64,000 nt of DNA, taken from positions 2,852,001 to 2,916,000 of the forward strand of contig NZ_CP101824.1 in the NCBI RefSeq assembly GCF_024498195.1. The letters run 5' to 3'. Below, in pieces: positions 22,193 to 47,328 of the stretch. Within the stretch, counting starts at the first letter, position 1, and each line of letters begins with the position of its first letter. The stretch is from Halovivax cerinus. Its GTDB lineage: Archaea > Halobacteriota > Halobacteria > Halobacteriales > Natrialbaceae. The notes beneath the pieces are model-generated. The model was not told where the DNA came from and searched no databases. It saw only the letters and a list, made by a program, of their open reading frames with translations. Both the position numbers and the translations under genes were made by a program.

Positions 22193-22383
22193 TCGCGTCT
22201 GTTCAGCGCGTACGTTCGCGTTTCACGAGGAGTCTGCGTCCGTGATGGGTCGGCGTGCCCGACGTACGGCGGTCGTACACTGGGCTCGACCGGTGTAGCG
22301 AACGGATGCTAATGTCCCGGTCCGCCGTCGGTCGGCGCGATGGAACCTGGCAACGTCGACCCTCGGTGCGACCGTGGTCACCG

Positions 22384-26343: not shown

Positions 26344-27297
26344 TCAGGCGGTCACGGATTCGTCGATCGCGTCGAGCTGTTCTCGGTAGCGGTTTCTGAC
26401 GGTAACGACCGTCGTCTGGGCCGTCTCGGCGACCGCGCGCTGCGGGATCGTCTCGTCGCACAGGAGCCCGGCGGCGTAGATCGCGGCGGCGGCGAATCCC
26501 GTCGGCGACTTCCCCGAGTGGAGTCCGAGTTCGGTCGTCTCGTCGATGATGTCGATGGCCGTCGTCTCGACGTCGCTACTCACGTCGAGTTCCGAGCAGA
26601 ACCGTGGAACGAACTGCCTGGGGTTCGTCGGCTCTAAGTTGATGTCGAGTTCGTCGGCGATGTACCGGTACGTACGCCCGATCTCGCGCTGTTCGACCCG
26701 GGAGACCGCGGTCACCTCTTCGAGACTCCGTGGAATGTTGCTCTTTCGACAGGACATGTACAGCGCGCTGGTCGCGACACCCTCGATCGATCGGCCGCGG
26801 ATCAGGTCCCGATCCAGCGCCTGTCTGTAGATGACGCTGGCCGTCTCTTTGACCGGATTCGGGACGCCGAGAGCGCTCACCATGCGGTCGATCTCCGAGA
26901 GCGCGTACTTCAGGTTGCGCTCGCCCGCGTTCTTCGTTCGGATGCGCTCCTGCCAGACCCGCAGTCGGTGAAGCTGACCGTGTTTTCCGGCGTCCATCGA
27001 GTGCCCGTTCGCGTCGCGGTTGCGCCAGTCGATGGTCGTCGTCAGTCCCCGGTCGTGCATCGATTGCGTCAGCGGGGCGCCCACCCGTGACAGCTCTTCG
27101 TGTTCTCTGGCGTCGAACGCACGCCACTCGGGACCGTAATCGATGGGATCCTCGCTCAGGACGAGTCCGCACTCCTCGCAGACTAACTCACGCCGATCCG
27201 GATCGTGGATGACCGTCTCGGTCTCGCAGTCCGGACACCGACCGTCGCCGACGGTGGTCTCTTCACGGACGTTCTTTGTGGTGACGGACCGTGTCAT
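26344..27297 (-). CDS. tfb: Transcription initiation factor TFB
   Basis: This 317-residue archaeal TFIIB homologue recruits RNA polymerase to TBP-bound promoters. It has an N-terminal zinc ribbon (CPDCETE ... CEECGLV), a B-reader/linker region (YGPEWRAFDAREHEELSRVGAPLT and IDWRNRDANG), then two cyclin-like repeats: LKYALSEIDRMVSALGVP..SVIYRQALDR with RSIEGVATSALYMSCRK, and VETTAIDIIDETTELGLHSGKSPTGFAAAAIYAAGLL. I chose ATG 27297 rather than 27321. Haloarchaea carry several TFBs with different promoter preferences. This one sits inside the glycan region. Confidence 0.95.
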   Translation of the reverse strand: MTRSVTTKNVREETTVGDGRCPDCETETVIHDPDRRELVCEECGLVLSEDPIDYGPEWRAFDAREHEELSRVGAPLTQSMHDRGLTTTIDWRNRDANGHSMDAGKHGQLHRLRVWQERIRTKNAGERNLKYALSEIDRMVSALGVPNPVKETASVIYRQALDRDLIRGRSIEGVATSALYMSCRKSNIPRSLEEVTAVSRVEQREIGRTYRYIADELDINLEPTNPRQFVPRFCSELDVSSDVETTAIDIIDETTELGLHSGKSPTGFAAAAIYAAGLLCDETIPQRAVAETAQTTVVTVRNRYREQLDAIDESVTA

Positions 27298-28170
27298 CAG
27301 TGGATTGGCAGACTCAGGCACGCACCGTAAGGGCTTGCCATGGTTTCAGGAGAAATACGCTCTTACTCGCGTCCCTCTCGGCGCCGAGCCGGTTTGCGTT
27401 CTCGTCCGTCGCATCGCACACGAACGGTCACCGTTCACGTCGTGTGTCCGCGTGAGAATCACACCCCGAACGCGAAGGCGGTTGTCTCGTCGGCTCCGAG
27501 AGCGGCCTTACGTCGCATGCGTGATACTGTCCTCCGAAACCACAGGCGATGCGTCCGAACGGCCCTGCGGTATAACGACGAGCGTACAAGCGTCGCCACG
27601 GTGCAACCGGCTGATCGCCGATCGACGACCCCATTCGATACCCGGCCTGGTATCGGTTACGAGCGGTGTCCGATGCCCGATTCGTGTTTGGGACGCGTCG
27701 CGTCGGTCCGAAGCGTGTCGTCGAACTGCGAGTACCGGCGGGCGGCGAGCCGGACATCGATTGCGGAGACGTCGGACGCGGACGCGTCGCCGTTCGGCCG
27801 TCCTCGGAGCGGTCGAAACCGCCACATAGCGGGCGACCGATCGTCGGTTTCGGGTCGCCTGTCTCGGCGTAACCGGTCGTTGTCACGGTTCCCATCGGGT
27901 CACGCTTTTGTCGGTCCGACTGTTCTGTCTGCGGTAATGGACCGCGAGGCTCGTCTGTGGCTTCGAGATCGGACCGGTCGAGGGTGGTGTCTTCCGGCGC
28001 CTTCGAACAATTCCGTCGATGCGAGACGGACGGTACACTGGTCCCTCTCACCGACTGCCGCGAGACGTAGTGTACCGTCGACGCGGACTGGTGGATCGAC
28101 GGAACGCCACCGTTCGTCGCCGCCCGATCGTGTACGAATACCCTGTAAATCCGGTAGCAGACGTTTGCAA
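27298..28170. other. Longest gene-free stretch of the central region
   Basis: About 870 bases upstream of the 28171 inverted repeat contain no frame with acidic composition, motif or membrane pattern. Frames of up to about 337 codons open here, but they are Arg/Ser/Thr-rich and look like shadows of high-GC DNA. No tRNA or obvious repeat was recognised. Confidence 0.5.
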
Positions 28171-28208
28171 ACGGTGAAAAACGTGGGGGTGTTTAAGAGT
28201 TTCACCGT
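28171..28208. promoter_or_regulatory. Inverted repeat flanking a TATA-like element
   Basis: A perfect 9-base inverted repeat, ACGGTGAAA at 28171-28179 and TTTCACCGT at 28200-28208, encloses TTTAAGA (28192-28198), a good haloarchaeal TATA element. A repressor bound to the arms would cover the promoter. The next gene on the + strand starts at 28353. Confidence 0.6.
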
Positions 28209-28352
28209 GGGGTTACCAGTTGGTGTGTCATACGTGAATCCGATCGGTAGCCAGAGGGTATCGACGAGGAGCGACAGCGTCCCCACTCGTCAGCAGACAC
28301 AGTCGTCAGTATCGGTCGAATACGACCGCCATCGAGACGAGGGTCGGAGGTA

Positions 28353-28949
28353 ATGTCGTCCGTCGATACATCCCTGCCGGAAGAAATTACGTCGGTCACC
28401 GACGATTCGAGCGCCGACGGTCTCTCGAAGGACGTCATCTTCGAACTGCTCAAGAACCGGCGTCGCCGGGAGGTGCTTTCGTACCTCCTCGACTGTGAGG
28501 GGACCGTCACGCTCTCAGAACTGGCCGAACAGATCGCCGCCTGGGAGAACGACACGACCGTCGACCAGCTCAACTCGGACCAGCGAAAGCGCGTCTACGT
28601 CGCCCTCTACCAGACGCACTTGCCGAAGATGGACGACGCTGGCATCATCGAGTACGACCAGGATCGCGGCTTGATCGACCTGTCCGACAACGCGGACTTA
28701 CTGGTGATGTACCTCGATACGGAGACACACACGCACGACCGATGGGACCGGTGGTACGCCGCGTTGAGCCTCGCCGGACTGCTCGTCTTGCTGGCTGGCG
28801 TCGGCGGAGTACCGGTCGTCGGCGCGATACCGCTCTCGATTCTCTCGGTGCTGGTCGTTGGCGCCGTCTGCTGTCTCTCGGCAGTCCACGTCGTCGTCAA
28901 CAAACGGATCCAGCGCCACGTCGACGGTAAGCTCTCCCGGATCGAGTGA
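28353..28949 (+). CDS. DUF7344-type winged-helix membrane protein 1
   Basis: This 198-residue protein has an N-terminal winged-helix domain: FELLKNRRRREVLSYLLDCEG, then LSELAEQIAAWEN, then KRVYVALYQTHLPKMDDAGIIEYD. The last block contains the YQTHLPKM signature also seen in the proteins at 47329 and 51891. Two transmembrane helices follow (about 133-175). I assign it to the haloarchaeal DUF7344 group, probably membrane-associated transcription regulators. It lies downstream of an inverted repeat with an internal TATA-like element, so it may be autoregulated. A role in controlling the surrounding surface genes is inference. Confidence 0.75.
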   Translation: MSSVDTSLPEEITSVTDDSSADGLSKDVIFELLKNRRRREVLSYLLDCEGTVTLSELAEQIAAWENDTTVDQLNSDQRKRVYVALYQTHLPKMDDAGIIEYDQDRGLIDLSDNADLLVMYLDTETHTHDRWDRWYAALSLAGLLVLLAGVGGVPVVGAIPLSILSVLVVGAVCCLSAVHVVVNKRIQRHVDGKLSRIE

Positions 28950-29691: not shown

Positions 29692-31530
29692 TCAGTCGAA
29701 GCGAGCGGGATCGACCGGTTCACCGTCGATCGAGAGGGTGCGAACGTCGGTCCGACCGTCGTAGGGGGAGACGTCGAGCGAGGTAACCTCGCCGGTGACC
29801 TCCCAGACGGTGCGAGCGTCCTCGGACCCCGAGAGCCACCACTCGGCCCAGTCGTCGCCGTACGCCTCGCCCTCGGTGAGCCATCTGGCGTGGTCTGCGG
29901 CCGGTTCGATCTCGCCGTCGACATCGATCCGGTACCGACACTGTCCGGCGAGTTCTAGCGTGTGTTCTCGATCCGGTACGTACGCCGCACGATCGAGTTC
30001 CTCCCCGTTCACCGCGAGCGTGCGGACCGCCGTCTCGCCGGCGTAGTCCGTCAGTTCGAGCGAGGTGATCTCGCCGGTAAACTCCCAGGCGGTGCGGGCG
30101 TCCGCGGACCCCGAGAGCCACCACTCGGCCCAGTCGTCGCCGTACGCTTCACCCTCGGTGAGCCATCGCGCGTGGTCTGCGGCCGGTTCGATCTCGCCGT
30201 CGACTTCGACCCGGTATCGACACTGCCCGGCGATCTCCAGCGTGTTCCGGGCGGGTCGATCGTCGAATCGCGACGGGTCGACCGATTCGCCGTCGATCGT
30301 GATCGATCTGACGTCGGTCGCACCGTCGTAGGGCGAGACGTCGAGTGAGGTGATCTCGCCGGTGTAGTGCCAGGTCGTGCGGGCGTCCTCGGACCCCGAG
30401 AGCCACCACTCGGCCCAGTCGTCGCCGTACGCCTCGCCGCGAGAGAGGTAGCGACGGCTTGCGGACGCCGGAACGATCTCGCCGTCGACCTCGAGTCGGT
30501 AGCCGAACTGGCCGGCCAGTTCGATCGTGTGGTCGTACGCAGCGGTGATGGTGTTCGACCCGGCGAAGACCTCGTCGACCGACGTCGGACACCCCTCCGG
30601 GACGCGGTCGGTCGCGTTCGTCCCGTTTCCGCCGCCGTCTACGTACCGCACGTCGGCGCCTGGGTGATGGCGTTTTTCTCCACGCCACTGCGTTCCCTCG
30701 ACGTAGATCTCGCAGCGACCGCCGTCGCGACCGATATCCATCGCGTACGGGTAGTCTCCGGCGACGAAGTCCGAATCGTAGACCTCGACGCGACCGTCGT
30801 GTTCGTCAGTGTTCCAGACCCACAGCGGTCGCCCGTCGCGTCCGGCCGGCGTGTTCACCGCGACGCAATTGTCGACGACGCCCCGGGACAGCCGGAACCC
30901 GGCGACCCAGTTGTCCTTCGCGTAGCAATTTCTGAATCGGACCGTCCCGCGTCGCCCGTTGGCGTTCGATCCGGGTGCCGACGCGTAGAACGCGTTGTCG
31001 TGGGCCCCCTCGACGTAGATCCGATCGAAGTCGATGTGGCCGGCGTGCTCCGGCGAGACCCAGATGCCGAACTGCGGGTGACGTCGGTCGCCGATTCCGG
31101 CTTCGACGCCGTCGCCCATGTAGACGTTCTCGATCCGCGAGGTGCCCCCGCCGGTGTCGGCCACTCCCAGGGCCCTACCGCGATGACCGAATTCGCCCCT
31201 GAAGGCGACGTTTCGGATCGTCCAGTTCGTCCCGTCGGCGACGATCGTCGCCGCGGCGCCTGCTGCGCGCTGATCGAAGATCACGTTCTCGAACGTTTCG
31301 CCGTCGTCGAGACGGACGACTCTGCGTTCGCCCGGGTCCAGGGTGACGACGTCGGAATCGTCGCTCGCCGCCGACCCCTGTCCAGCGAGTCCCGCGGTCG
31401 CCGCAGCCGCAGCCGCGAGCTTCAGGTAGCCCCGTCGGTGCAGTAATCCCGTCTTATCCGAATGCTGGCGGGATGTCTCCGTGGTAACCGTTGATTGTCT
31501 CTCGTCCCGTTCCGGTAGATCGCGTGCCAT
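29692..31530 (-). CDS. Tat-exported beta-helix protein with three C-terminal repeats
   Basis: The protein is about 612 residues from ATG 31530. Starts at 31560 and 31566 are possible and lie closer to the TATA element at 31579-31592. A twin-arginine signal (LLHRRGYLKLAAAAAATAGLAG) indicates export by Tat. The mature part begins with a right-handed beta-helix domain (about 65-310) with TNWTIRNVAFRG, RIENVYMGDGVE and WVSPEHAGHIDFDRI. Three tandem repeats of about 95 residues follow, each with EVDGEI, GEAYGDDWAEWWLSGS and TGEITSL. It heads a family of three adjacent paralogues and is the only one with these repeats. The likely role is binding or processing surface polysaccharide. Confidence 0.8.
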   Translation of the reverse strand: MARDLPERDERQSTVTTETSRQHSDKTGLLHRRGYLKLAAAAAATAGLAGQGSAASDDSDVVTLDPGERRVVRLDDGETFENVIFDQRAAGAAATIVADGTNWTIRNVAFRGEFGHRGRALGVADTGGGTSRIENVYMGDGVEAGIGDRRHPQFGIWVSPEHAGHIDFDRIYVEGAHDNAFYASAPGSNANGRRGTVRFRNCYAKDNWVAGFRLSRGVVDNCVAVNTPAGRDGRPLWVWNTDEHDGRVEVYDSDFVAGDYPYAMDIGRDGGRCEIYVEGTQWRGEKRHHPGADVRYVDGGGNGTNATDRVPEGCPTSVDEVFAGSNTITAAYDHTIELAGQFGYRLEVDGEIVPASASRRYLSRGEAYGDDWAEWWLSGSEDARTTWHYTGEITSLDVSPYDGATDVRSITIDGESVDPSRFDDRPARNTLEIAGQCRYRVEVDGEIEPAADHARWLTEGEAYGDDWAEWWLSGSADARTAWEFTGEITSLELTDYAGETAVRTLAVNGEELDRAAYVPDREHTLELAGQCRYRIDVDGEIEPAADHARWLTEGEAYGDDWAEWWLSGSEDARTVWEVTGEVTSLDVSPYDGRTDVRTLSIDGEPVDPARFD

Positions 31531-31793
31531 GCGTTGTGGACGAGTCCGGGGAACGGCCATAAGCATTCTGGAACCAGTATAATTAAATTTTCGATACAGT
31601 ATTCGTCTCTAACGCTGGGTTCGGGGACCCAACGAGGAACTGCTCGGAAGCATATAGTGTCCCGGTAGTGTGAGTCTCTCCGGAGATGACTCGTAACGCG
31701 ATTGTACCTGACTTTCGACGGCGAGTCTGCGTCGACGTGGTGCGGTAACTGGTCGGTGTGAAGAAGAGTGCCAGGTGGAGTCGGGCGTCCCTA

Positions 31794-32786
31794 TCAGAAC
31801 ACCCAGCAGGTGAACGGACTGCAGCTCCCGGACCCATCAGACGGCGTGTCGGGTTCAGTCGCGTCGGCGCCCGACGCCGCTTCCTCGGCGCTCGTCGGAC
31901 ACCCATCGGGGACTCGTGATCCGTCCGGTTCGCCATCGCTCCCGTCGATCGAGATGGTCGATCCGCTTCGTCGCTGCAATCCGCCGTGGAAGTCGGTGTC
32001 GAACCGGACGTTCGTCGCCTCGACGTGCGTCTGTCCGCCGTTCGCGCCGGCTGCGATGGCGTAGTGACGCCCGTTCACGTCGAGGTCACAGTCTCGGATC
32101 TCGACCGGTCCGGGCGCCCACGCCCAGATTCCACGGCCGTCTTTGTGTCGGTCGTCGTTCAACGCGACGCAGTTCTCGACCCGTCCCTTCGCGAGACGGT
32201 AGTGAGCGACCCAGGAGTTCGCCGAGTAACAGTTCTTCAACGCGACCGTTCCCGCGCCTTTCGGAGCGGAACAGTAGAAGGAGTTGTCGCCCATCTCCTG
32301 GACGTTCACCCGATCGATCTCGAGGTGGCCGGCGTGTTCGGGTGCGACCCAGAGGCCGAGGCCGTGTCGGTGCCCCGCGCTCGCACCATCACCGAGGTAG
32401 ACGTTCTCGACCACTGAGGTACCGTCGCCGGGTTCGGTGACACCCATGATTCCGGTCGGTGGTGAGTCCATCCGGCCCTCGAAGCCGACGTTTCGGATCG
32501 TCGTGTTCGACGCGTGGGCGTCGACCGTCGCCGACGCTCCCGACGCGGTGACGTCGATCAGGGTATTCTCGAGTGCCTCCCCAGCATTCAGACTGACGAC
32601 ACGGTGCTCGCCCGCATCGACGGTAATCGTCTCGTACTCCGTCGCGCTGACGAGTCCCGCTGCGCCGACGCCGACCGCTGTTGCGCTGCCGAGCCCGGCC
32701 AGTTGCAGGTATCGTCGCCGTCCCATCGATTCGGTTCCAGAACCGATCCGTGTCGATCGATCGTCTTCGATCCGTTCGCGTGCCAT
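31794..32786 (-). CDS. Tat-exported beta-helix protein, paralogue 2
   Basis: This 330-residue protein starts from ATG 32786, 26 bases after a TATTATAAA element, which fits a leaderless transcript. The Tat signal is MGRRRYLQLAGLGSATAVG. The beta-helix domain matches the neighbours, with TTIRNVGFEGR, VVENVYLGDGASAG, WVAPEHAGHLEIDRVNVQEMGDNSFYCSAP and WVAHYRLAKGRVENC. It ends in a Ser/Asp/Pro-rich tail with two cysteines (GSCSPFTCWVF) instead of the repeats of paralogue 1. It is presumably a secreted, cell-surface protein. No catalytic residue pattern is obvious, so pectate-lyase-like activity is only a possibility. Confidence 0.8.
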   Translation of the reverse strand: MARERIEDDRSTRIGSGTESMGRRRYLQLAGLGSATAVGVGAAGLVSATEYETITVDAGEHRVVSLNAGEALENTLIDVTASGASATVDAHASNTTIRNVGFEGRMDSPPTGIMGVTEPGDGTSVVENVYLGDGASAGHRHGLGLWVAPEHAGHLEIDRVNVQEMGDNSFYCSAPKGAGTVALKNCYSANSWVAHYRLAKGRVENCVALNDDRHKDGRGIWAWAPGPVEIRDCDLDVNGRHYAIAAGANGGQTHVEATNVRFDTDFHGGLQRRSGSTISIDGSDGEPDGSRVPDGCPTSAEEAASGADATEPDTPSDGSGSCSPFTCWVF

Positions 32787-33091
32787 GTCCGGTAACACGA
32801 GGATACTATTATAAATCTTACCCTGTCTAACGAGTATAATTTGATGAATGTAGTATAAATATGGGTGTTGCTACGTGTATGTAGTGAGAATATCCATAGT
32901 ACTATTCGATCGGCCGTCGGTCCACTCGTCCGGCGTGTGGTCGAAGTAACGACCTATTACCGGCGTGGACGGGCCAACGCAGTTCCCTCACGAAGACGAG
33001 TACCGACCGAGTCGGTGACGACGACTGCCATCGGTACGGGTGTCCACCCGTCGGTCGGCGATCGGGACGGACGGATCGCTGGACGAACCGG
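32787..33091. other. AT-rich promoter region and short gap
   Basis: The first 120 bases (to about 32910) are markedly AT-rich and hold the TATA element of paralogue 2 (TATTATAAA near 32808). Further AT boxes (GTATAATTTG, GTATAAATATG) lie on either strand. The rest, to 33091, is ordinary GC-rich sequence without a gene. Confidence 0.5.
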
Positions 33092-34012
33092 TTATCGGCC
33101 GCGCGCCGCCTCGGCCGGCGACTCGGGGCACGAGTCCGGACAGACGTCTTCGGGTTCGCGGTCGGCTTCGTCGACGATGTCGATCGTTCCACCGTCGACC
33201 TCGTTGAGACCGCCGTGGTACTCGGTCGAGAAGGCCGTGTCCGAGACCTCGACGGTCGATCCGGATCCGTTCGCACCGGATTCGATAGCGTAGTGTCTGC
33301 CGTTCATCGCCAGGTTACACCCGCGGACCTCGACGGCTCCAGGCGACCACGCCCAGACGCCGCGGCCGTCCTTGTGTTCGCCGGTGTTGACCGCGGTGCA
33401 GTTTTCGACCGTTCCGTCCGCCAGTCGAAAGTGAGAAACCCAGGAGTTCGCGGAGTAACTGTTTCGGATGTCCACGGTACCGCCGCCTTTGGTTCCGGGG
33501 GCGGAGCAGTAGAACGAGTTGTCACCCATCTCCTGGACGTTGACGCCGTCGATGTCGATGTGGCCGGTGTGATCGGGCGCGACCCAGACACCGAGCCCGA
33601 TTCGGTGTCCCTGACTGGCGCCGTCGCCGAGGTAGACGTGTTCGATTGTGGATGTGTTTCCGCCCGTGTCCGCGACGCCGAAGACGGCTTCTTTTCGATC
33701 GACGCGACCCTCGACGCCCACGTTTCTGATCGTCCAGTCGGTGCCCATCGCGCTGATGGTCACGTGGGTGTCGGGAGCCGTACAGTCGTAGACGACGTTC
33801 TCTAACGTCTCTCCGTCGCCGACGGAGACCGTCTTACGCTCCCCCTGTTCGAGCGTAATCGTCTCGTACTCGGCCGAGTCCGCACCGGCTGTGCCCGCGA
33901 CGCCGGTCGCTGCGACTCCAGCAGCCGCGGCGACGGAACTGACGAAACTGCGGCGAGTAAATCGCGGGTTATCGTGGTCGGTGGTCGAACCGGTGTGGGG
34001 GTAATCGGTCAT
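33092..34012 (-). CDS. Tat-exported beta-helix protein, paralogue 3
   Basis: This 306-residue protein has the Tat signal FTRRSFVSSVAAAAGVAATG. The beta-helix domain is close to paralogue 2: EYETITLEQGERKTVSVGDGE, TDWTIRNVGVEGR, IEHVYLGDGASQG, WVAPDHTGHIDIDGVNVQEMGDNSFYCSAP and KDGRGVWAWSPGAVEVRGC. A short acidic tail contains CPDSCPESP. An ATACATAAAC element about 25 bases before ATG 34012 indicates a leaderless mRNA. Each paralogue has its own promoter, so the three genes are co-oriented but not one operon. They probably arose by local duplication. Confidence 0.8.
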   Translation of the reverse strand: MTDYPHTGSTTDHDNPRFTRRSFVSSVAAAAGVAATGVAGTAGADSAEYETITLEQGERKTVSVGDGETLENVVYDCTAPDTHVTISAMGTDWTIRNVGVEGRVDRKEAVFGVADTGGNTSTIEHVYLGDGASQGHRIGLGVWVAPDHTGHIDIDGVNVQEMGDNSFYCSAPGTKGGGTVDIRNSYSANSWVSHFRLADGTVENCTAVNTGEHKDGRGVWAWSPGAVEVRGCNLAMNGRHYAIESGANGSGSTVEVSDTAFSTEYHGGLNEVDGGTIDIVDEADREPEDVCPDSCPESPAEAARGR

Positions 34013-34353: not shown

Positions 34354-36165
34354 TCACCGATATCGGTCACTGCCGCTTCCAACTTCGTAGAGGACGAACT
34401 CGCCGTTCGAGACGTACCGGGCGGACCCGTCGTAGGACTCCAGGTCTTCCAGTGCGGCCGGGTCGTAGTTGAGTCCCCGGTAGAGTCCGTGCTCGCGGAC
34501 CGTGTCGAATTCGCTCACCGCGAGGAAGTACGGGTCTTCGTCCGCGTAGGCGTACTGGTAATCGCCAGCGTTGAACTCCGCCGCGTCGACGACACCCGTA
34601 CCCGGCCCGACGATACCCGCCTGAGCTGGGCTCATCGACTCGACGCCGTAGATGGCGTGGTTGAACCGGTACGTGGTGTAGCCGTACCCCGCGTAGGGCT
34701 GGTCGTCGGGTCCGTTCGTGATGGCGGTCTCGTACCCGTGGTAGGTCTCCTCGGAGACGTGCTGTGTCGGGCTGTATATGAACGGCGAGGCGAAGACCGT
34801 CGCCAGCGCGAGCACGAGACACGCGCCGAGCACGATGGCGACGAGGGCGTTCGGCACGGCCGCTGGCGCGTACCGGCTGGTCCAGCCGACGAGCCCCGTC
34901 AGGGCGATCGCGCCCACGATCGTCAGGACCACCGCGATGAACCCGACCTGCCTGAACGCCATGGTCGACGTTCCCAGGAAGTAGACGGCGACCATCGCTC
35001 CCAGCGGGAGCAGGGCGGCCCCGAGGTACGTTACGGTCGTTCGAGCCTCCGGGGCGGACCGGCTCCGCCCGATCCAGACGATGAGTACGTAACAGCCGGC
35101 GAACAGTCCGATCAGGCTGGTGACGAGAAAGAGTTTGGCGAACAGTTCCGGGACACTCCCGCCGATCTCGGCGAGAGAGGCACTCCGCTGACCGACCGCC
35201 TCCTCCCCGCCGACGTCCGCGCGAACGAGTCCGTACGCCAGTCCCAGGACCCCCTCGCGAAACCGCTCGTTCGCCAGGACCCAGACACCGAAAGCGCCGG
35301 CGAGGGCGGCAGTGTGGCCGTACGTCGTCGGGTGTTCCAGGATCGGGTGGGCCTCGTTCGAGCGGCGGCGGACGAGATACTGCACCCCCGTGATGCTCGC
35401 CAGCACGACGACCGCGCTGGCCATCTGCTGTGGGTGAATCAGCAGCAGGGTGAACCCGGTAAGGGCGATGAGCGCGCTGTAGGGCGACCCGACCAGGGGC
35501 AGGCGAACCGGCGGTCGACGGTAGAGGTAGGCGAAGACGGCGAAGAGGAAGACCGGCACGAAGAACAGGGCGTTCGTGTTGCTGTGTGCGCCCATGTGCG
35601 TCGCGACGTTGTTCACCGGGAGGACGAACCAGGCACAGACGGCGGCGATGCCGGCGGCGAGCGGGCGGTCTGTGACCGCGTAGACGATCAGCGGGACGAA
35701 CAGGACGAAGGGGACGAAGAGCACGACGACCGCGAGCATGAGCGCCCGCGGAACGTCGAACCCGCCCGCGACCGACAGGGCGGTGGCGACGCCGTGCAAT
35801 CCAGGATACAGGAGTTCGTGGGGCGCCAACGTTCCGGCGTGGAAGTCCCGCACCCAGCCAAGGTGGGTGAGACCGTCACCCATGCCGATGAAGAAGTACC
35901 CGCGGACGAGCGGCAGACTCACGATCGTGGTGACGACGAACCCCCCTAATCCGATACCGATCGCCTGGTGGAGTCCGCGCATAGAAAGCGCCATCGTCAC
36001 CGCGATCACGAGCGCGAGTCCGAACAGTATCCAGGTCGACGTGGGCGTTCCCGCGTAGATCGACGGTTCGTATCCGGTGGCTGGATTCGACCGAGCGATC
36101 AGTATCGCGGCGGCCAGTGCGACGAACCCGACGGTCAATACGGTGTTGGCGTGGAACTTACGCAT
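34354..36165 (-). CDS. Polytopic membrane protein of the surface-glycan locus
   Basis: This 603-residue protein starts from ATG 36165 (MRKFHANTVLTVGFVAL). Codons upstream encode an Arg/Pro-rich stretch that looks non-coding. About 12-13 transmembrane helices are seen. A conserved-looking GDGLTHLGWVRDFHAG loop follows the fourth or fifth helix, and a soluble C-terminal domain (about 490-603) carries YHGYETAITNGPDD and YGYTTYRFNHAIYGVE. The plan, with many helices and an early charged Asp/His loop, recalls GT-C glycosyltransferases or polysaccharide polymerases, but I cannot assign a family. It stands between surface-protein and glycan genes. A TAACAAA box lies 300 bases upstream. Confidence 0.75.
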   Translation of the reverse strand: MRKFHANTVLTVGFVALAAAILIARSNPATGYEPSIYAGTPTSTWILFGLALVIAVTMALSMRGLHQAIGIGLGGFVVTTIVSLPLVRGYFFIGMGDGLTHLGWVRDFHAGTLAPHELLYPGLHGVATALSVAGGFDVPRALMLAVVVLFVPFVLFVPLIVYAVTDRPLAAGIAAVCAWFVLPVNNVATHMGAHSNTNALFFVPVFLFAVFAYLYRRPPVRLPLVGSPYSALIALTGFTLLLIHPQQMASAVVVLASITGVQYLVRRRSNEAHPILEHPTTYGHTAALAGAFGVWVLANERFREGVLGLAYGLVRADVGGEEAVGQRSASLAEIGGSVPELFAKLFLVTSLIGLFAGCYVLIVWIGRSRSAPEARTTVTYLGAALLPLGAMVAVYFLGTSTMAFRQVGFIAVVLTIVGAIALTGLVGWTSRYAPAAVPNALVAIVLGACLVLALATVFASPFIYSPTQHVSEETYHGYETAITNGPDDQPYAGYGYTTYRFNHAIYGVESMSPAQAGIVGPGTGVVDAAEFNAGDYQYAYADEDPYFLAVSEFDTVREHGLYRGLNYDPAALEDLESYDGSARYVSNGEFVLYEVGSGSDRYR

Positions 36166-36436
36166 CTGTTGCCCCTCGTGACGGCCATCGTCCGTCGTCG
36201 TCTCGTCTCGTCGGACCCGACGGGGCGCTCGTACCGGTCCAGGTGGGTGTGAACGTCGACCGACCGCACGCACCACCATCGTCCGACGGATTGATCCAGT
36301 GGCTCGACGGACGCCTCGATCTCGTGTCACTGGGGCGGCGTCCGAGACGCCGTCCACCGACTCCGGGGGAGACGCCGTCTCTCCCGGTTCGTTCGCCGCG
36401 GCGGGCGGCACGCGGCTGATGGGCGACGAGACACAT
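36158..36436 (-). other. Possible leaderless upstream ORF of the membrane protein
   Basis: ATG 36436 lies 27 bases after a TAACAAA box (36464-36470). The 92-codon frame runs to TAA 36158-36160 and overlaps the 36165 start by 8 bases. The composition is Arg/Ser/Pro-rich, so it is weak as a protein. It could instead be a long 5' leader. Confidence 0.2.
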
Positions 36437-36463
36437 TCGTCTCGGTGCAAGCGTGGTCGGTCG

Positions 36464-36470: not shown

Positions 36471-36634
36471 TCCCCAGACTAGCCGATCGTACGGTCGTCG
36501 ATCGCCACTGGCCGAGGCCGCCGGTTGCCGGTGGCCCGTCGCCTCCCGGCCAGCATCGATCTGGCTGTCACCGTTGACTGCGGGTACTTTTGGCGAATCC
36601 GGTGGTGTCCGTGGGTGGAGATACCGAGGACACG

Positions 36635-37942
36635 ATGTCAGAAATACGTATCGACGAGGTGCGAGTCGACGGGTCTGAGCTCGAGTGTATCGTCAGCGCG
36701 ACCGGCGATCTCGATCGGTTCGTCGCCCGGGAGTCGTTCCGGGTCTCGTACGACAGATCCATCGAGGGGGTTCCGCGCGCGATACTGGTGATCCCCGCGC
36801 TGGCCCAGCTCTGTCCGGTCGCCTGGGCCAGGGGTGGTGACGTTGCGGCACCGGTGGTCGACGAGCGGTTCGCCAGGTCACTCAGGGACGTCCGCGACGC
36901 GCTGCTCGACATGCACGACTTCATGGTGGGTGGGTCACTCCGCGCACCACGTACCGACCCGCCGGATCCGCCGGCCACTGACGAGAGCGGCCTCCTCTTT
37001 ACTGGTGGTGTCGACTCGACTGCGTCGTACGTCCGCCATCGGGGGGAGTCGCCGACGCTCGTGAGCGTTCGTGGGTGGACGATAACGCCGGATCCGTCGG
37101 ACGACAGGAAATGGGAGACGATGCGTGAGCGCGTCTCGGCGTTCGCCGATCCGCGCGGGCTGGAGACGGCGTTCGTCGAGTCGAACATGCTCCGCTTCCT
37201 CGATCACCCGATGTTGCTCGCTCACTACAAGCGCTACGTGGACGGCGCCTGGTACAGCTCGGTCGGACACGGTCTGGGACTTACGGGGCTGTGTGCGCCG
37301 CTCGCGTACGCGAGCGGGATGAATCACCTCTACGTCGCCGCCACCCACTGGGAGGGGATCGATCTCGCGTGGGGCTCCCGTCCAGACGTCGACGACAACG
37401 TCCGCTGGCGCGGGACGCAGTGTCACCACGACGGGTACGAACTGACGCGTCAGGAGCGCATCGATCTCCTCGCAGAGTACGCGGCGGATTCGTCCCACGA
37501 CCTCACTCTGCAGACGTGTAACGAACGCCTCTCCGGGAACTGCGGCCGGTGCGAGAAGTGCTACCGGACGGCCATCGGCCTGCGACTGGCCGGTCTCGAT
37601 CCGAACGAGCACGGCTACGCCTTCGCCGACGACGACTATCGGATCGTCCGGGAGGCGTTCGAGCAGGATCGCTGGGTGCTCGGTCTCGACGAGCGACACA
37701 TGTGGGAGGACATACGGAACCGGACACGTGAGACGCGCCCTCGATCGGCCCCGGAGCGCGACTTCTTCGACTGGCTCGACGCCGTCGACCTGGACGATCT
37801 CGTCGACGCGTCGAGTCCACCGCTCTCACACCGCGCCCTCCGGGCGGGCGCCCGAACGCTCCCGACGGGCGCGTACAGGCGTCTGTATCCGGTCTGGAAG
37901 GAAGTATCAGTCGTCGGACGGCGGCTCGTGGATTCGTCCTGA
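36635..37942 (+). CDS. PP-loop ATP pyrophosphatase with QueC-like zinc site
   Basis: This 435-residue protein starts from ATG 36635 (MSEIRIDEVRVDGSELEC). It carries a PP-loop, LLFTGGVDSTASYVRH, at about residues 120-135, the ATP-binding SGGxDS motif of N-type pyrophosphatases. Near residues 300-318 a cysteine cluster, CNERLSGNCGRCEKCYRT, resembles the zinc site of QueC-like 7-cyano-7-deazaguanine synthases. A GHGLGLTGLCAPLAYASG segment and a C-terminal extension of about 110 residues are extra. Its place between a membrane protein and a phosphodiesterase in a glycan locus suggests an amidation or adenylation step on a sugar or surface precursor rather than tRNA base synthesis. This is inference. 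Confidence 0.8.
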   Translation: MSEIRIDEVRVDGSELECIVSATGDLDRFVARESFRVSYDRSIEGVPRAILVIPALAQLCPVAWARGGDVAAPVVDERFARSLRDVRDALLDMHDFMVGGSLRAPRTDPPDPPATDESGLLFTGGVDSTASYVRHRGESPTLVSVRGWTITPDPSDDRKWETMRERVSAFADPRGLETAFVESNMLRFLDHPMLLAHYKRYVDGAWYSSVGHGLGLTGLCAPLAYASGMNHLYVAATHWEGIDLAWGSRPDVDDNVRWRGTQCHHDGYELTRQERIDLLAEYAADSSHDLTLQTCNERLSGNCGRCEKCYRTAIGLRLAGLDPNEHGYAFADDDYRIVREAFEQDRWVLGLDERHMWEDIRNRTRETRPRSAPERDFFDWLDAVDLDDLVDASSPPLSHRALRAGARTLPTGAYRRLYPVWKEVSVVGRRLVDSS

Positions 37943-40949: not shown

Positions 40950-41924
40950 TCACTCGTGTCGCATGTCGGCGGTCACCGCGTTCCGATCCGACGGAGACTC
41001 GCGGGTTCCGAGGGCCCGCAGATATACCTCGTAGACCGCGTCCGTCGTCCGATCGAGGCTCAGTGACTGGACCGCCCGACGTCCGTTCGAGCGCCGGTCG
41101 GACCGCAGGACCTCCTCGAGGCCGTTCGAAAGCGCCCGATCTGACTCGGCGACGACGGCGGGTTCGACGTCGGCGAGCCGGCTGGGGACGTCACCGACCG
41201 GCGTCGAGACGACCGGCAGTTCGCACGCCATTGCCTCCTTCACCGCGTTTGGCGACCCTTCGCTCCGCGACGTGAGCAAGAGCGCGTCCGCCGCGGCCAT
41301 GTACGTCGGCATTCGGTCGTGCGGGACTCCCGAGATCGTTCGAAGCCGGACCGGTTCCCGAAACCGATCCCCGACCGTCTCGACGATGCGTTCGGCCCGA
41401 GGGTAGTTCTTCACCGATCTGGACGGTGCGTACGGAAAGAGGACGTCGTACCCCGGTTCGGTCCAGCCCACCGCCGACCGCGCTTCGTCGCGATCGCGAG
41501 GCGCGAACGTCGACAGGTCGATTCCGTCGGGGACGACGTGCGCGTCGACGTCGAGCTCGCGGGCCATCGTGGACGACATGACGATAACCTCCTCACAGTG
41601 GCGTGCACACACGCGACTGAGCGGCGCGATCGATCCGTTGAGGTCTGAACCCCACAGCGAGAGGACTACCGGAACCCGACGCTGGCACAGTGCTGCAGGA
41701 GCGACCAGTCCGTAGTGGGCGTGAACGAGATCGTACGACGGATCGAGTGTATTCCTGACGTGGGTCAGGAACCGGAGGTAGTCGACCGGCGACCGACCGC
41801 CCGTCGACGTCGGGTCGCCGGGGACGGCCAGGACGGTCGTCTCGACGCCGCGGTCCGAAAGTGCCTCGATCTGCTGCGTCATGAAGGGCGCCTCCTCGTT
41901 CGTCGTGAGCGTCAACACCCGCAT
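40950..41924 (-). CDS. GT4-family glycosyltransferase
   Basis: This 324-residue protein starts from ATG 41924 (MRVLTLTTNEEAPFMTQQIEAL), 27 bases after a TAACAAA box. Longer in-frame starts (41963, 42029) are unlikely because they lie on the far side of the box. It has the GT-B two-domain plan: an N-terminal donor-side domain with LVHAHYGLVAPAAL and LSLWGSDLNG, and a C-terminal domain with HVVPDGIDLSTFAP, then DALLLTSRSEGSPNAVKEAMACELPVVSTPVGDVP, which contains the E-x7-E nucleotide-sugar binding motif. It adds a sugar to the growing glycan. The acceptor is unknown. Confidence 0.88.
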   Translation of the reverse strand: MRVLTLTTNEEAPFMTQQIEALSDRGVETTVLAVPGDPTSTGGRSPVDYLRFLTHVRNTLDPSYDLVHAHYGLVAPAALCQRRVPVVLSLWGSDLNGSIAPLSRVCARHCEEVIVMSSTMARELDVDAHVVPDGIDLSTFAPRDRDEARSAVGWTEPGYDVLFPYAPSRSVKNYPRAERIVETVGDRFREPVRLRTISGVPHDRMPTYMAAADALLLTSRSEGSPNAVKEAMACELPVVSTPVGDVPSRLADVEPAVVAESDRALSNGLEEVLRSDRRSNGRRAVQSLSLDRTTDAVYEVYLRALGTRESPSDRNAVTADMRHE

Positions 41925-41951
41925 CGGCGAGCGACGACGCATCGTTGCGGC

Positions 41952-41958
41952 TTTGTTA
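41952..41958 (-). promoter_or_regulatory. TAACAAA box of the glycosyltransferase gene
   Basis: TTTGTTA on the + strand, 27 bases before ATG 41924 on the - strand. The flanking GC after the box (TAACAAAGCC) is shared with the copies at 22186 and 47002. Confidence 0.55.
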
Positions 41959-42155
41959 GCCATTCCGTGCACACGTCGTATCCACGTCGAACAGCGGCCT
42001 TGGCCGGCGTGGTTGTCGGGAAGGCGCAACCGGTGAGTGGGCGGATGCGGTCGCGGTGGAGGGGTTTCCGTCAGTGGTCACCGGTCGTAATCATTCGATG
42101 ATAACGCGAGAAACCTTTAACGTGTCGTTCGGTGAAGCGGTGATAGTCAGATCGC

Positions 42156-42725: not shown

Positions 42726-44126
42726 TCATCGTGCGTCGAGGCGCGCACGAAGCGAGTGACGATTCGTCCCCTCGCGGGAGCCGTCACCGAGGGTCAGCAC
42801 GTGGTGGTGGGTCCCCTCCAGGTCGAGCGCGTTGCGTCCGTCGAGGACGACGAGCGGATCGACCGCCTCCCAGTCGATCGTCCTGAAGGCCGTGTGCGGG
42901 GTCACGACGACGATCGCGTCGAGATCGGCGTCGGGGAGACCCGCCATCGGCAGTGGCGAGATACCGAGGTCGTCCGGGTCGACGAGCGGATCGGTCGCGA
43001 CGACGGATGCGCCGCGGGCCCGCAGTCGATCCACGACGTCGAGCGCAGGCGCGTGTCGAAGCTCCGGAATCCCCGGACGGTACGTCAACCCGAGGACGGC
43101 GACGGTCGCGTTCTCGAGGTCTGTGCCGACGGCGTCGAGTTCTCTGCCGAGTCGGTCGACGACGACGGCCGGCATTCGGTCGTTGACCCGCCTCGCGGTC
43201 GCCGTCAGCGGGGTGTCGACGTCGATCTGGCCCATCAGGAAGTGTGGATAGTTCGGGATACAGTGGCCGCCGACGCCCGGGCCAGGATCGTGAATGTCAC
43301 AGACCGGCAGCTGGTTCGCGGTCTCGATCGCCTCGAGGACGGAGATTTCGAGATCGTCACTGGTCCGGGCGAGCTCGTTCGCGAGCGCGATGTTGACGTC
43401 GCGGTAGATTCCCTCGAAGACCTTGACGGCTTCCGCGGTCGTGGCGTCGGCAACCGTCGTCACGCCAGCGGCGTTCACGGGTTCGTACAGTGTCGACGCG
43501 GCGCGGGTACTCGCCGCATCGATGCCCCCGACGACCTTGGGGTACTGACCGCGGATGTCTCGGAGCGCCGTGCCGGACGACGTTCGTTCCGGACACACGG
43601 CGACGCCGAACGAGCCGCGATCGAGTCCGGTCGCTGATTCGAGCGTCGGGGTCACGACGTCCCTGGCGGTTCGCGGCGGGACCGTCGATTCGAGGACGAC
43701 CAGGTCGCCCGGGTCGAGTCCGGCCGCGATATCCTCGAGGACTGCCTCGACGGTCGAGAGATCCGGTTCGTGATCGTCACCCACCAGCGTCGGGACGATG
43801 ACGACGTGTACGGTCGCGTTCGCGGCGGCCGCCGGCCCGTCGGTGGTGGCCGACAGTCGACCCGCGTCGACCTGGTCCGTGACGAGTGGATCCAATCCGG
43901 GTTCGTCGACGTGTGCGTCGCCAGCGGACACGCTCGCGACCACCTCCGGATCGACGTCGACACCGGTGACGCGCACTCCGGTATCGGCGAAGACCGCGGC
44001 GAGCGGGAGCCCCATCTTGCCGAGTCCGTAGACTGCGAGCGGTATCGCTCCGCCGGTGAGCGCCTCCCGTTCCACCCGGTTCGAGACGCCGCTGTCGTAG
44101 AGGCGGTGGCACGCGGCGTCGGTCAC
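42726..44126 (-). CDS. Nucleotide-sugar 6-dehydrogenase (UDP-GlcNAc/ManNAc type)
   Basis: This 466-residue NAD-dependent enzyme oxidises C6 of a UDP-HexNAc to the uronic acid. The NAD fold is VYGLGKMGLPLAAVFA, and VVLESTVPPRTARDVVTPTLE, EAVKVFEGIYRDVNIALANEL and catalytic Cys in GVGGHCIPNYPHFL follow. The C-terminal domain has VLGLTYRPGIPELRHAPALDVV. It matches the WecC/WbpA class. GTG 44126 overlaps the preceding gene's TGA as GTGA, showing translational coupling. Last gene of a four-gene operon, it would provide the uronic acid for a diacetamido sugar. Confidence 0.88.
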   Translation of the reverse strand: MTDAACHRLYDSGVSNRVEREALTGGAIPLAVYGLGKMGLPLAAVFADTGVRVTGVDVDPEVVASVSAGDAHVDEPGLDPLVTDQVDAGRLSATTDGPAAAANATVHVVIVPTLVGDDHEPDLSTVEAVLEDIAAGLDPGDLVVLESTVPPRTARDVVTPTLESATGLDRGSFGVAVCPERTSSGTALRDIRGQYPKVVGGIDAASTRAASTLYEPVNAAGVTTVADATTAEAVKVFEGIYRDVNIALANELARTSDDLEISVLEAIETANQLPVCDIHDPGPGVGGHCIPNYPHFLMGQIDVDTPLTATARRVNDRMPAVVVDRLGRELDAVGTDLENATVAVLGLTYRPGIPELRHAPALDVVDRLRARGASVVATDPLVDPDDLGISPLPMAGLPDADLDAIVVVTPHTAFRTIDWEAVDPLVVLDGRNALDLEGTHHHVLTLGDGSREGTNRHSLRARLDAR

Positions 44127-45136
44127 TTCGGACTCACCTCGATGTCCGTCTCTCCCGACACGAGTCGGTCGATCTCGCGAACCGTCTCGAGGGCGCGGAG
44201 ACCGTCGGCCGCCGTCACCGCCGGTTCGATGCCCGTCGTGACCGCGGACACGAAGGACTCGAGTTCCACGCGGAGTGGTTCGCGATTTTTCACCTCCGGC
44301 CGCTCGATGACGCTCTCGTGGCGGTACCGACGGCCGCCGTTTCCGGAGACGAACTCGGGGAACGAGTCACGATAGAGCAGGACTGACTGGTCGAGGTAAT
44401 CGATCTCGACCAGACACTCCGCCGCCGTGATCGTCAGCCGCCGCACCTTTCGCTGGCTCACACGACTCGCCGTAACCGTGGCGACGACGTCGTCGTACTC
44501 GAGCGTCGCCGTCGCGTGCTGTCCGTCGGCGGTACCCGTCGCCGCCGTCACCGTCGGATCACCGCCGACGAGCGACTGGACGACGTCGACGTCGTGTATC
44601 ATGAGGTCGAGCGTCACCCGGTCGGTGGCGGTTCGGTCGATCGGCGGTCCGAGTCGCTTGGCCTCGACGGCGATGACGTCAAGGTCTTCGACGAGCGACG
44701 CTGCGGTCTCGACGGCGGGATTGAACCGTTCGACGTGACCGACCTGGAGGACGAGTCCCCGGTCTTCGGCGAGCGCCGCGAGGTCCCGGCCCCTGTCCAT
44801 CCGGGTGGTGAGCGGTTTCTCGACGAGCACGTGGACGTCGGCTTCGAGACAGCGCTCGACCGTCTCGTAGTGGGCGGCAGTCGGTACGGCGACGGACACG
44901 AGGTCGCAGGTCGACAGGAGGGCCTCGACCGATCGAACCGTCGTGCCGTACTCGTCGGCGACTCGGTTCGCGAGCTCCGTATCGAGGTCGGCGATACCCG
45001 CGAGTTCGACACCTCTGGACTCGCTGTAGACGCGAACGTGATTCTCGCCCATCGCGCCGACGCCGATGACGCCGGCGCGCGGGGGTACGGGGGCGGTCTG
45101 CCTCGTCTTGGTGGTAGCGTGAACGGTGTCTGTCAT
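44123..45136 (-). CDS. Gfo/Idh/MocA oxidoreductase (WbpB-like 3-dehydrogenase)
   Basis: This 337-residue protein starts from ATG 45136 (MTDTVHATTKTR). The longer open frame to 45445 is an Arg/Ser/Thr-rich shadow. The Rossmann fold AGVIGVGAMGENHVRVYSE is followed by VSVAVPTAAHYETVERCLEA, then VLVEKPLT (signature EKP), QVGHVERFNPAV and DLMIHDVDVVQSLVGGDP, with the Asp-x-x-His catalytic region. Members oxidise sugar hydroxyls. Between a WbpE-like aminotransferase and a 6-dehydrogenase, the likely reaction is C3 oxidation of a UDP-GlcNAc uronic acid to the 3-keto sugar. Confidence 0.85.
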   Translation of the reverse strand: MTDTVHATTKTRQTAPVPPRAGVIGVGAMGENHVRVYSESRGVELAGIADLDTELANRVADEYGTTVRSVEALLSTCDLVSVAVPTAAHYETVERCLEADVHVLVEKPLTTRMDRGRDLAALAEDRGLVLQVGHVERFNPAVETAASLVEDLDVIAVEAKRLGPPIDRTATDRVTLDLMIHDVDVVQSLVGGDPTVTAATGTADGQHATATLEYDDVVATVTASRVSQRKVRRLTITAAECLVEIDYLDQSVLLYRDSFPEFVSGNGGRRYRHESVIERPEVKNREPLRVELESFVSAVTTGIEPAVTAADGLRALETVREIDRLVSGETDIEVSPK

Positions 45137-45212
45137 GGTCTGGTGAGTGGTCCGGGCGGGCGTTTCTGACGGTTCGTCGTCACGGCGACGACACCGGCGT
45201 CGGGACGGTCGA

Positions 45213-46319
45213 TCATCGGTCCTCGAAGTGTGCCGAGACAGCGGAGACGACGGCTCGACGATCGGTTTCGTCGAGCGACGGGTGGACCGGTAGCGAGAGG
45301 ACGCTCGCGGCCGCCCGCTCAGTCTCCGGGAACGACCGCGCGGCCGTGTGAACGGATTCGTACGCGGGCTGGCGGTGGATCGGTCTGTCGTAGTAGATTC
45401 CGGCGCCGATGCCGTGGTCGGAGAGCGTTTCGGCGAGTGCGTCACGGTTCTCCGCGCGAATCGTGTACTGATGGTAGACGTGTCGATACCCCGGCGGTTC
45501 GACCGGTCGATCGATCGGGAGGTGTGTCAGGTGATCGTCGTAGTAGCGTGCGTGCTCCCGCCTGGCGCGATTGAACGCGGGCAGTCGATCGAGTTGTCGC
45601 CGCCCGATCGCCGCAGCGATCGACGTCAATCGGAAGTTGTGTCCGAGTTCGACGTGGCCGTACGTGCGTTCTCCCGTCGGCCGCCCGTGGTTGACGAACC
45701 GTGCGACGCGCTCTGCGATCTCGTCCGAGTCGGTCGTAACCATTCCCCCCTCTCCCGTGGTCATGTTCTTCGTCGGGTAGAACGAGAAGCAGGCGGCGTC
45801 GCCGAGTGACCCGACGCGGTCGCCGTCGATCTCGGCGCCGTGGGCCTGACAGGCATCTTCTACGACGAACAGGTCGTGTTCGTCCGCGATGGCGACGAGC
45901 TCGTCCATTGGCGCGGGGCACCCGTACAGGTGAACGGGTACGAGACCGACTACATCGTCGCGCGCTTCGCAGCACTCCCTGACCGCGTCCGGATCGATCG
46001 CGTACGTCTCCGGATCCACGTCGGCGAACACGGGTTGACCGCCGGCCAGCCGGATCGCGTTCGCACTGGCGACGAACGAGAAGGGACTGGTGACGACCGT
46101 CTTCCCCGGTTCGACGTCGAAGGCGGTGAGGGTCGCGTGCAGGGCGGTCGTTCCGTTCGTCGTCGCGACGGCGTGATCGGTCCCGCAGTACTCGGCGAAC
46201 TCGGATTCGAACAGCCGTACTTCCGGTCCATCGGCGAGTTCGCCACGTTCTGCGAGCGCTTCGATTCGATCGAGGGCGGCGGGTCCGACGTCGGGGTCCG
46301 CGAGTGGAATGTCTGCCAT
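45213..46319 (-). CDS. DegT/DnrJ/EryC1 sugar aminotransferase (WbpE-like)
   Basis: This 368-residue PLP enzyme has EFAEYCGTDHAVATTNGTTALHATL, VTSPFSFVASANAI, GLVPVHLYGCPAPMDEL, LFVVEDACQAHGAE (PLP-binding Asp) and SFYPTKNMTTGEGGMV, whose Lys forms the Schiff base. The order matches sugar 3-aminotransferases of the DegT family. It would turn the 3-keto sugar made by the Gfo/Idh enzyme into the 3-amino sugar. It starts 7 bases after the acetyltransferase stop. A 76-base gap separates it from the oxidoreductase start. Length and motifs are complete. Confidence 0.9.
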   Translation of the reverse strand: MADIPLADPDVGPAALDRIEALAERGELADGPEVRLFESEFAEYCGTDHAVATTNGTTALHATLTAFDVEPGKTVVTSPFSFVASANAIRLAGGQPVFADVDPETYAIDPDAVRECCEARDDVVGLVPVHLYGCPAPMDELVAIADEHDLFVVEDACQAHGAEIDGDRVGSLGDAACFSFYPTKNMTTGEGGMVTTDSDEIAERVARFVNHGRPTGERTYGHVELGHNFRLTSIAAAIGRRQLDRLPAFNRARREHARYYDDHLTHLPIDRPVEPPGYRHVYHQYTIRAENRDALAETLSDHGIGAGIYYDRPIHRQPAYESVHTAARSFPETERAAASVLSLPVHPSLDETDRRAVVSAVSAHFEDR

Positions 46320-46326
46320 CGGTAGG

Positions 46327-46902
46327 TCACTCGATCTGGTTCGGTCGGTCGAGCGGTTCCGGGAGCGGTTCGGTTCGAGCGGGTGCGCCGAGCGCCAGCG
46401 TCTCGGCCGGGACGTCGTCGGTCACGACCGATCCAGCCGCGACGAACGCGCCGTCCCCGATCGTCACGCCGGGAAGGATCGTCGCGTTCGCGCCGATCGA
46501 GGCGCCGTCCTCGACAGTCGGTCCCTGGAGGTCGGCCTCCCGGCGGATCGGGTACTCGTCGTTCGTCAGCACAGCCCCGGGTCCGACGAAGACGTTCGAT
46601 CCGATCCGCGTGTCACTCGGGACGTAGACGGCCGACTGGATACTCACGCCGGAACCGATGTCGGTTCGTCCGTCGATGGTCGTTCGGGTGCCGACCAGCA
46701 CGTCGTCGCCGATGGTGGTTCGTTCGCGCACGAGCACGTGGTGGCCCGTCGTGAATCTGTCACCGATCGTGACGTCGTCGTAGATAATTGCGCCTCGACG
46801 AATCGTCGCGTCGTCGCCGATCGTCGGCGGCCGACCGCGTTCGGTTCCGATCGCTGCGTCGTCGTGTATGTGGCAGTTTCGACCGTAGGGTGCGTTGGTC
46901 AC
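46327..46902 (-). CDS. Left-handed beta-helix N-acetyltransferase (WbpD-like)
   Basis: This 191-residue protein (GTG start 46902) is made of hexapeptide repeats, for example [51 protein letters not shown] and [24 protein letters not shown]. It ends with [25 protein letters not shown] and [12 protein letters not shown], the classic end of trimeric sugar acetyltransferases. It would N-acetylate the 3-amino group made by the aminotransferase. It is the first gene of the four-gene operon, with a TAACAAA box at 47002. A 14-codon frame from ATG 46943 ends across this GTG start. Confidence 0.88.
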
Positions 46903-47328
46903 GTTCGATCACCGCGTACCGATTGGTGGCTTGGTCTTCGCATGTTGATACTCGACTGCACGATCCGGTTGCAATCAACCCACACCTCCGGCCATCGAGG
47001 CTTTGTTATCCATCACTTGCGGGAAACGTAGCCCCGATCTACGAGGGACAGCCCGAGCGAATGCCGCGATAGTGTACCGGCTGTCGACGGCGGACGACGA
47101 TACCGACTGGTGCACGACGCAGCCGATCGGCGCCCCGCACGGTCGGTGTCTTTCTCCCTGACGACCGGTCTGTCCCGATCTGACGTCCGTCACGGTCTCT
47201 GACCGGTACAATCGGCTTTCGCAGGGGTAGCCGGGAGATAGTAAAACCCACGTCCGCCGTCTCGACGTCCGTGAGATATCCGATTACAGCCGCCACAGCC
47301 GAATCGGAAGCTTCGACGGAGGGCCCGG
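46903..47328. promoter_or_regulatory. Divergent region, glycan operon and DUF7344 gene
   Basis: About 425 bases hold the TAACAAA box (TTTGTTA on the + strand, 47002-47008) for the - strand operon and a GATAGTAAAAC element (about 47237) for the DUF7344 gene at 47329. From the box, an ATG at 46943 starts a 14-codon frame ending TGA 46899-46901, overlapping the GTG 46902 start. No other gene is seen. Confidence 0.5.

Follow-up and report, generated by a model that had tools for sequence, protein, structure and literature searches.

A gene trio for predicted beta-helix proteins and a widespread haloarchaeal C-terminal module at a glycan locus of Halovivax cerinus

Some beta-helix proteins that act on polysaccharides are encoded among the genes for the polymer itself. 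The epimerase AlgG is encoded within the alginate cluster, AlgE enzymes carry one to four substrate-binding R-modules, and the catalytic motif is DPHD (PMC4444821); WceF is a beta-helix glycosidase encoded in its own exopolysaccharide (EPS) cluster (PMC7949094). The synthesis of archaeal exopolysaccharides is poorly known, and the pathway is described as unknown even for Haloarcula hispanica (PMC9943897). Here we describe three adjacent genes, P1, P2 and P3, in the genome of Halovivax cerinus (GCF_024498195.1, NZ_CP101824.1), within a stretch of 64,000 nucleotides (nt) that we call the window and whose numbering is used for the coordinates (Table 1). The predicted products combine a signal for twin-arginine translocation (Tat) with a beta-helix core, and P1 additionally ends in three copies of a module that is common in haloarchaea. 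We propose, at roughly even chances, that P1–P3 leave the cell via Tat and tailor the surface polysaccharide or EPS of the adjacent glycan locus extracellularly. In the literature searched, which consisted mainly of papers outside subscription, no description was found of the module, of DUF6541 or of haloarchaeal beta-helix proteins.

Predicted beta-helix cores and export signals

A reading of the window made from its sequence only had reported three adjacent paralogues, each with a Tat signal. The open reading frames (ORFs) are indeed present at the positions given, on the minus strand, and their cores are 42% (P1/P2), 42% (P1/P3) and 58% (P2/P3) identical, with E-values of 1e-57 to 1e-104. 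At each N-terminus, a twin-arginine motif goes with a stretch that is hydrophobic or rich in Ala, the motifs being RRGYLK in P1 (RRGYLKL), RRRYLQ in P2 and RRSFVS in P3, and no lipobox was found in the three N-termini. Export via Tat is supported by these predicted signals; in the structure model, the signal region of P1 is of low confidence. The core motifs that the sequence-only reading quoted as common to the trio, DNSFYCSAP, WVAPEHAGH and ENVYLGDG, are the P2 versions. P1 and P3 have close variants: DNAFYASAP, WVSPEHAGH and ENVYMGDG in P1, and WVAPDHTGH and EHVYLGDG in P3. P2 ends in a short Ser/Pro/Asp linker followed by SCSPFTCWVF.

The full model of P1 has a predicted local distance difference test score (pLDDT) of 84 overall, about 95 in the core and mostly 80–93 in the modules. 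In Foldseek, the P1 core finds a pectate lyase of polysaccharide lyase family 3 (PL3) with a probability of 1.00 and an E-value of about 0.01, and there is no neighbor at E ≤ 0.001. Other neighbors are fucoidan lyase, PL6, chondroitinase B, alginate epimerase/lyase, WceF, and phage depolymerases or tailspikes; the listed PDB neighbors are mostly beta-helix proteins that act on polysaccharides. A right-handed beta-helix is the supported prediction for the core of P1–P3, and several homologues are called "right-handed parallel beta-helix repeat-containing protein" at NCBI. The cut-off of the Pfam model Beta_helix (PF13229; 25.9 bits) was not reached by P1 (17.2) or P2 (12.9), and P3 gave no match to it. 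Scattered short matches of P1–P3 below the Pfam and NCBIfam cut-offs (HCBP_related, Yop-YscD_cpl, TLV_coat, plastocyanin and others) were taken as chance, and a PHROG match of E 1e-4 over 23 residues, in which no stretch passes alone, was not interpretable.

Conservation was read from 59 core representatives of less than 80% identity, in P1 numbering. R106, E134, Y182 and R234 are invariant in 59/59, R213 (58/59), E81, N82, D86 and N107 each vary once, and N179 and W237 are also near-invariant, in a family of which some members are only 26% identical to P1. Several of the conserved residues recur every 21–31 residues, that is, near the length of one helical turn, so it is plausible that the invariant residues line one groove. 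As judged from the alignment, the conservation of the core is enzyme-like. The proteins could instead be non-catalytic, binding glycan or serving as a scaffold at the surface or in the matrix and tying the exported polymer to the cell, with the modules adding avidity. No catalytic family matches them, and a surface repertoire would fit with genomes that hold as many as six paralogues differing in their modules; lectin-like behavior is possible for tailspike-like folds, and WceF auto-agglutinates with its EPS (PMC7949094). However, the invariance of Arg, Glu and Tyr down to 26% identity to P1 exceeds what a scaffold needs, and we consider a purely non-catalytic role unlikely.

The C-terminal modules

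The three tandem modules of about 95 residues noticed in P1 are real repeats of 95, 94 and 90 amino acids (aa). All share an unchanged GEAYGDDWAEWWLSGS, and identity to module 1 is 59% for module 2 and 74% for module 3. Modules 2 and 3 group by position with modules 1 and 2 of the two-module protein of H. asiaticus, which makes module 1 of P1 the extra copy. The tree thereby rules out that all three arose in this species alone. Across 29695–30531, the module centers have the same protein sequence and almost the same DNA but the edges differ, a pattern that fits strong constraint or gene conversion.

Module 3 alone was modeled confidently by AlphaFold2 (pLDDT 94; predicted template modeling score 0.85) with about six strands and one or more short helices. 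The C-terminal part of P1 has no match above cut-off in Pfam or NCBIfam and none at E < 0.1 among PDB sequences, and the hits of a module profile to PDB sequences (a pilus protein, E 0.12; a BNR protein, E 0.38) are not credible. Foldseek of the module model against PDB and BFVD returned nothing at E < 0.5, the best E-values being 2.4 and 0.69. In these searches the module therefore has no match to a known family or fold of carbohydrate-binding modules (CBMs), and no RTX nonapeptides were seen on reading the module sequences of P1. The earlier statement that the module could not be placed in a known fold holds to this extent, that neither the confident model nor the homologue search led to a described domain with a known role; the module is, however, not peculiar to P1 but belongs to a family widespread in haloarchaea.

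This family was found in two forms. A profile of the three modules of P1 detects related modules in other Natrialbaceae and, weakly, proteins with the repeat YEF(T/S)VSG...GGxDSYxFSGE, in whose module regions no Pfam or NCBIfam model scores above cut-off. A profile built from this generic form only, without the WW-type that carries GEAYGDDWAEWWLSGS, recovers 13/13 WW-type modules at 29.5–46 bits, whereas the best of 650 shuffled sequences reaches 9.0. In a search of 4000 proteins, it finds each of the modules of P1 at E 1e-7 to 1e-8 and the whole of P1 at E 1.5e-26. Because the generic profile recovers the WW-type with the shuffled controls far below, the two forms are one family, and likeness from composition alone is excluded. 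They differ in tryptophan, with a mean of 4.6 per module in the WW-type against 0.7 in the generic form; the WW-type branch, at about 4–5 Trp per module, is best represented in Natrialbaceae. By sequence comparison, the P1 modules are a Trp-rich, divergent branch of a haloarchaeal module which, though very common, seems never to have been named.

The first gene had been described as the only one with modules. This is correct within the cluster, P2 and P3 having none and members of the genus one to three, but not across the genome, in which two paralogues at 263–267 kb bear four and two modules. One paralogue there (263–265 kb; L026 1453-3699) has two very divergent modules (LVAFVTEPDASYASHEFYADG...) ahead of two of the WW-type. 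A free-standing form also occurs as frames of about 107–210 aa with one partial module. The copy in the H. cerinus genome (G000:C1:1160755-1160952) has no obvious export signal, and similar frames are present in genomes G029, G032, G020 and G004.

The Trp richness of the WW-type is what a sugar-binding surface might need, and the modules are probably glycan-binding add-ons that hold the protein on the glycan or the cell surface. Alternatively, the module may serve haloarchaeal proteins exported via Tat in general, as a domain for retention, anchoring or folding stability, and have nothing to do with glycan chemistry. This alternative applies to the module alone and is compatible with beta-helices that still act on the glycan. 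Its fusion partners comprise GH16, subtilase S8, a thioredoxin-like protein and several beta-helix types, and it sits nearly always at the C-terminus of Tat-type exported proteins (an RR motif is found in 90/93 module proteins with an intact N-terminus vs 29/108 neighboring genes). A 34-sequence profile detects it in 209/294 haloarchaeal genomes and 65/78 genera; in a phylum-wide sample of 247 genomes, 29 have a match, and all those listed belong to the order of H. cerinus. On the other hand, P2 and P3 lack the module yet are presumably exported, about 29% of the sampled haloarchaeal genomes have no match, and the Trp-rich branch resembles a specialized binding surface. We regard a general function unrelated to glycans as quite possible, at somewhat less than even chances.

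The glycan locus and its counterparts

The trio had been placed in a glycan region, and glycan genes do adjoin it. The link proved to be much stronger than could be known from the window: it extends to one membrane-protein family across 30 genomes, to paralogous loci and to plasmid copies in other genera. The co-location sample comprised 30 Natrialbaceae genomes of 20 genera with 92 strong core matches, and a distance of 10 kb was allowed. Of these cores, 76 lie within that distance of a homologue of the membrane protein next to P3, compared with about 0.9 expected under random placement; the loci concerned also hold genes for a flippase, a deacetylase, a phosphodiesterase and amino-uronate sugars. 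The pairing is seen in 28 of the 29 genomes with a close membrane-protein homologue; the sole genome without the membrane protein (G240) has just a distant core match. Many sampled genomes carry two paralogous loci. Of the more distant homologues of the membrane protein, 17/22 are accompanied, at up to 10 kb, by a beta-helix core or a protein with modules.

In H. cerinus itself, three further core paralogues at 263–268 kb stand with a paralogue of the membrane protein and with genes for a flippase, a phosphodiesterase and a deacetylase. On plasmids of Halomontanus rarus and Haloterrigena alkaliphila, copies of the locus retain the gene for transcription initiation factor IIB (TFB), the helix-turn-helix (HTH) gene, module-bearing beta-helix genes, a flippase and the membrane protein. 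In Haloferax mediterranei (L174), the membrane-protein homologue WP_004060909.1 and a flippase-type gene stand beside the same four sugar genes as in the window. The nearby WP_004060911.1 (L174 15972-18635), annotated as hypothetical, combines a Tat signal, a PL-like beta-helix of another type and four modules, and makes a tractable test case. The partnership of core and membrane protein and the location at glycan loci are well supported by these observations.

The association might nevertheless be passive, as in a variable island of cell-surface genes, with P1–P3 breaking down external polysaccharide for nutrition. Secreted pectate-lyase-like degraders are common among beta-helix proteins, and PL-like beta-helices with WW-type modules exist outside glycan loci. 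Against this speaks that the cores pair specifically and repeatedly with a single membrane-protein family, at two paralogous loci, across 19 genera and on plasmids, and no sugar transporter or catabolic gene was recognized next to P1–P3; we judge it very unlikely.

We take the four sugar genes at 42726–46908 to be WbpA/B/E/D-like and to serve diamino-uronic acids. On the Halomontanus plasmid, the membrane-protein homologue bears the annotation DUF6541 family protein. TFB may serve the locus as a basal factor of its own, and a second type I phosphodiesterase (PF01663) lies outside the locus core at 20545–22308, about 7 kb past the end of P1. P1 probably starts at ATG 31530, as this start matches the MAR start of P2 and as the TATA-like box would place the transcription start site downstream of 31566. 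The boxes of P2 and P3 are so close to the ATG (29–32 nt) that their transcripts would be almost leaderless. A promoter of its own is plausible for each of the three genes.

Table 1. Features of the gene trio and its surroundings (window coordinates unless a locus is named)
Feature	Position	Strand	Remarks
P1	29692..31530	−	Predicted Tat signal, right-handed beta-helix core, three C-terminal modules; 612 aa
P1, whole ORF	29692..31566	−	Further upstream ATG at 31566
P1 twin-arginine signal region	31369..31530	−	RR at aa 32–33 and Ala-rich stretch; cleavage site approximate, by eye
P1 beta-helix core	30583..31353	−	aa 60–316
P1 module 1	30247..30531	−	95 aa; extra copy relative to the two-module H. 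asiaticus protein
P1 module 2	29965..30246	−	94 aa; clusters with H. asiaticus module 1
P1 module 3	29695..29964	−	90 aa; clusters with module 2 of the H. asiaticus protein
TATA-like box, P1	31578..31587	−	TTTAATTATA, 57 nt before ATG 31530
P2	31794..32786	−	From ATG 32786 (ORF 31794–32798); predicted Tat signal, beta-helix core, zero modules
TATA-like box, P2	32810..32815	−	TTTATA, 29 nt before ATG
P3	33092..34012	−	Predicted Tat signal, beta-helix core, zero modules; of the trio, closest to the membrane protein
TATA-like box, P3	34039..34044	−	TTTATG, 32 nt before ATG
Membrane protein (partner)	34354..36450	−	698-aa frame, about 11 hydrophobic spans; adjoins P3
Conserved neighbor	36590..37942	+	No Pfam match
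Type I phosphodiesterase, PF01663	37988..39580	−	Relative also beside the genome's second beta-helix cluster
Polysaccharide deacetylase, PF01522	39887..40867	+	
GT4-type glycosyltransferase	40950..42029	−	
UDP-sugar dehydrogenase, MocA oxidoreductase, DegT aminotransferase, hexapeptide acyltransferase	42726..46908	−	
TFB and HTH protein	26344..28949	− / +	TFB 26344–27321 (−); HTH protein 28353–28949 (+)
TFB/HTH pair, plasmid copies of the locus	L171 15932-18221; L173 4538-6831		

Proposed function and comparison with known systems

We propose the following sequence of events. Cytoplasmic enzymes would build a repeat unit containing an amino-uronic acid, and the flippase and the DUF6541-like membrane protein would translocate and assemble it. 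The beta-helix proteins would leave the cell folded, by Tat, and hold the anionic chain in a groove of invariant Arg, Glu and Tyr. They may then tailor the chain, for which epimerization or cleavage is more likely than hydrolysis. The C-terminal modules would form an independent, Trp-rich accessory domain that probably keeps the enzyme on the glycan or the cell surface. That the proteins act on polysaccharide outside the cell was already suggested from the sequence. The predicted beta-helix fold, the Tat-type signal and the association with a polysaccharide locus support this suggestion, while lyase or binding activity is what we infer. Taken further, the module would be a new-fold carbohydrate-binding family of most haloarchaea, Trp-rich here, and the core would represent undescribed archaeal tailoring enzymes (epimerase or lyase) that form with the DUF6541-like protein and the flippase a conserved system for exopolysaccharide assembly and tailoring. 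We think it rather doubtful that all parts of this combined statement hold together.

Several points weigh against the proposed tailoring of the glycan. No carbohydrate-active Pfam family matches P1–P3 above cut-off, a core profile finds nothing credible among PDB sequences (the best is a ribosomal protein, E 0.084), and the DPHD motif is absent from the P1–P3 translations. Some of the invariant core residues could be structural. As to location, for 16/92 cores the membrane protein is over 10 kb away, and some proteins with a beta-helix and WW-type modules stand outside glycan loci (e.g., L136 and L137). The fusions to a subtilase and a thioredoxin-like protein mean that the role of the module need not be glycan binding. 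Because it is attached to a protease as well, the module alone is no evidence of action on polysaccharide, and a general role in surface retention is nearly as likely as sugar binding.

For the study of archaeal exopolysaccharides, the pairing of beta-helix and membrane protein, which also occurs in Haloferax mediterranei, an organism that can be cultured, offers candidate genes for assembly and extracellular tailoring that can be put to the test. A name for the module would give an annotation to parts of many secreted haloarchaeal proteins that are now called hypothetical.

Among the known systems, AlgE resembles the predicted plan of the trio in that an exported right-handed beta-helix has tandem modules at its C-terminal end, the number of which varies, in that a cluster has several paralogues, and in the context of a uronic-acid polymer. 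The differences are that AlgE uses type I secretion, whereas P1–P3 have a Tat-type signal, and that there is no detectable sequence relationship. In addition, the R-modules of AlgE are calcium-binding RTX beta-rolls of Gly/Asp-rich nonapeptides, which the P1 modules are not. AlgG, a periplasmic epimerase, is comparable as a beta-helix enzyme whose gene sits with those for the synthesis and export of its polymer, but it differs in size and likewise has no detectable sequence relationship to the trio. Lacking DPHD, P1–P3 are by sequence not AlgG/AlgE epimerases. The tailspike-like EPS depolymerases, including WceF of Pantoea, which is among the Foldseek neighbors, are comparable in another respect, with a beta-helix protein that is encoded in an EPS synthesis cluster and acts on the matrix of its own cell. 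WceF is, however, a trimer of larger subunits, with low TM-scores and no sequence match to P1–P3. With the PF13229 proteins, finally, the trio shares the predicted fold and the NCBI name of its homologues, although it scores below the cut-off. By analogy, P1–P3 are organized like AlgG/AlgE or WceF, but are not members of those families.

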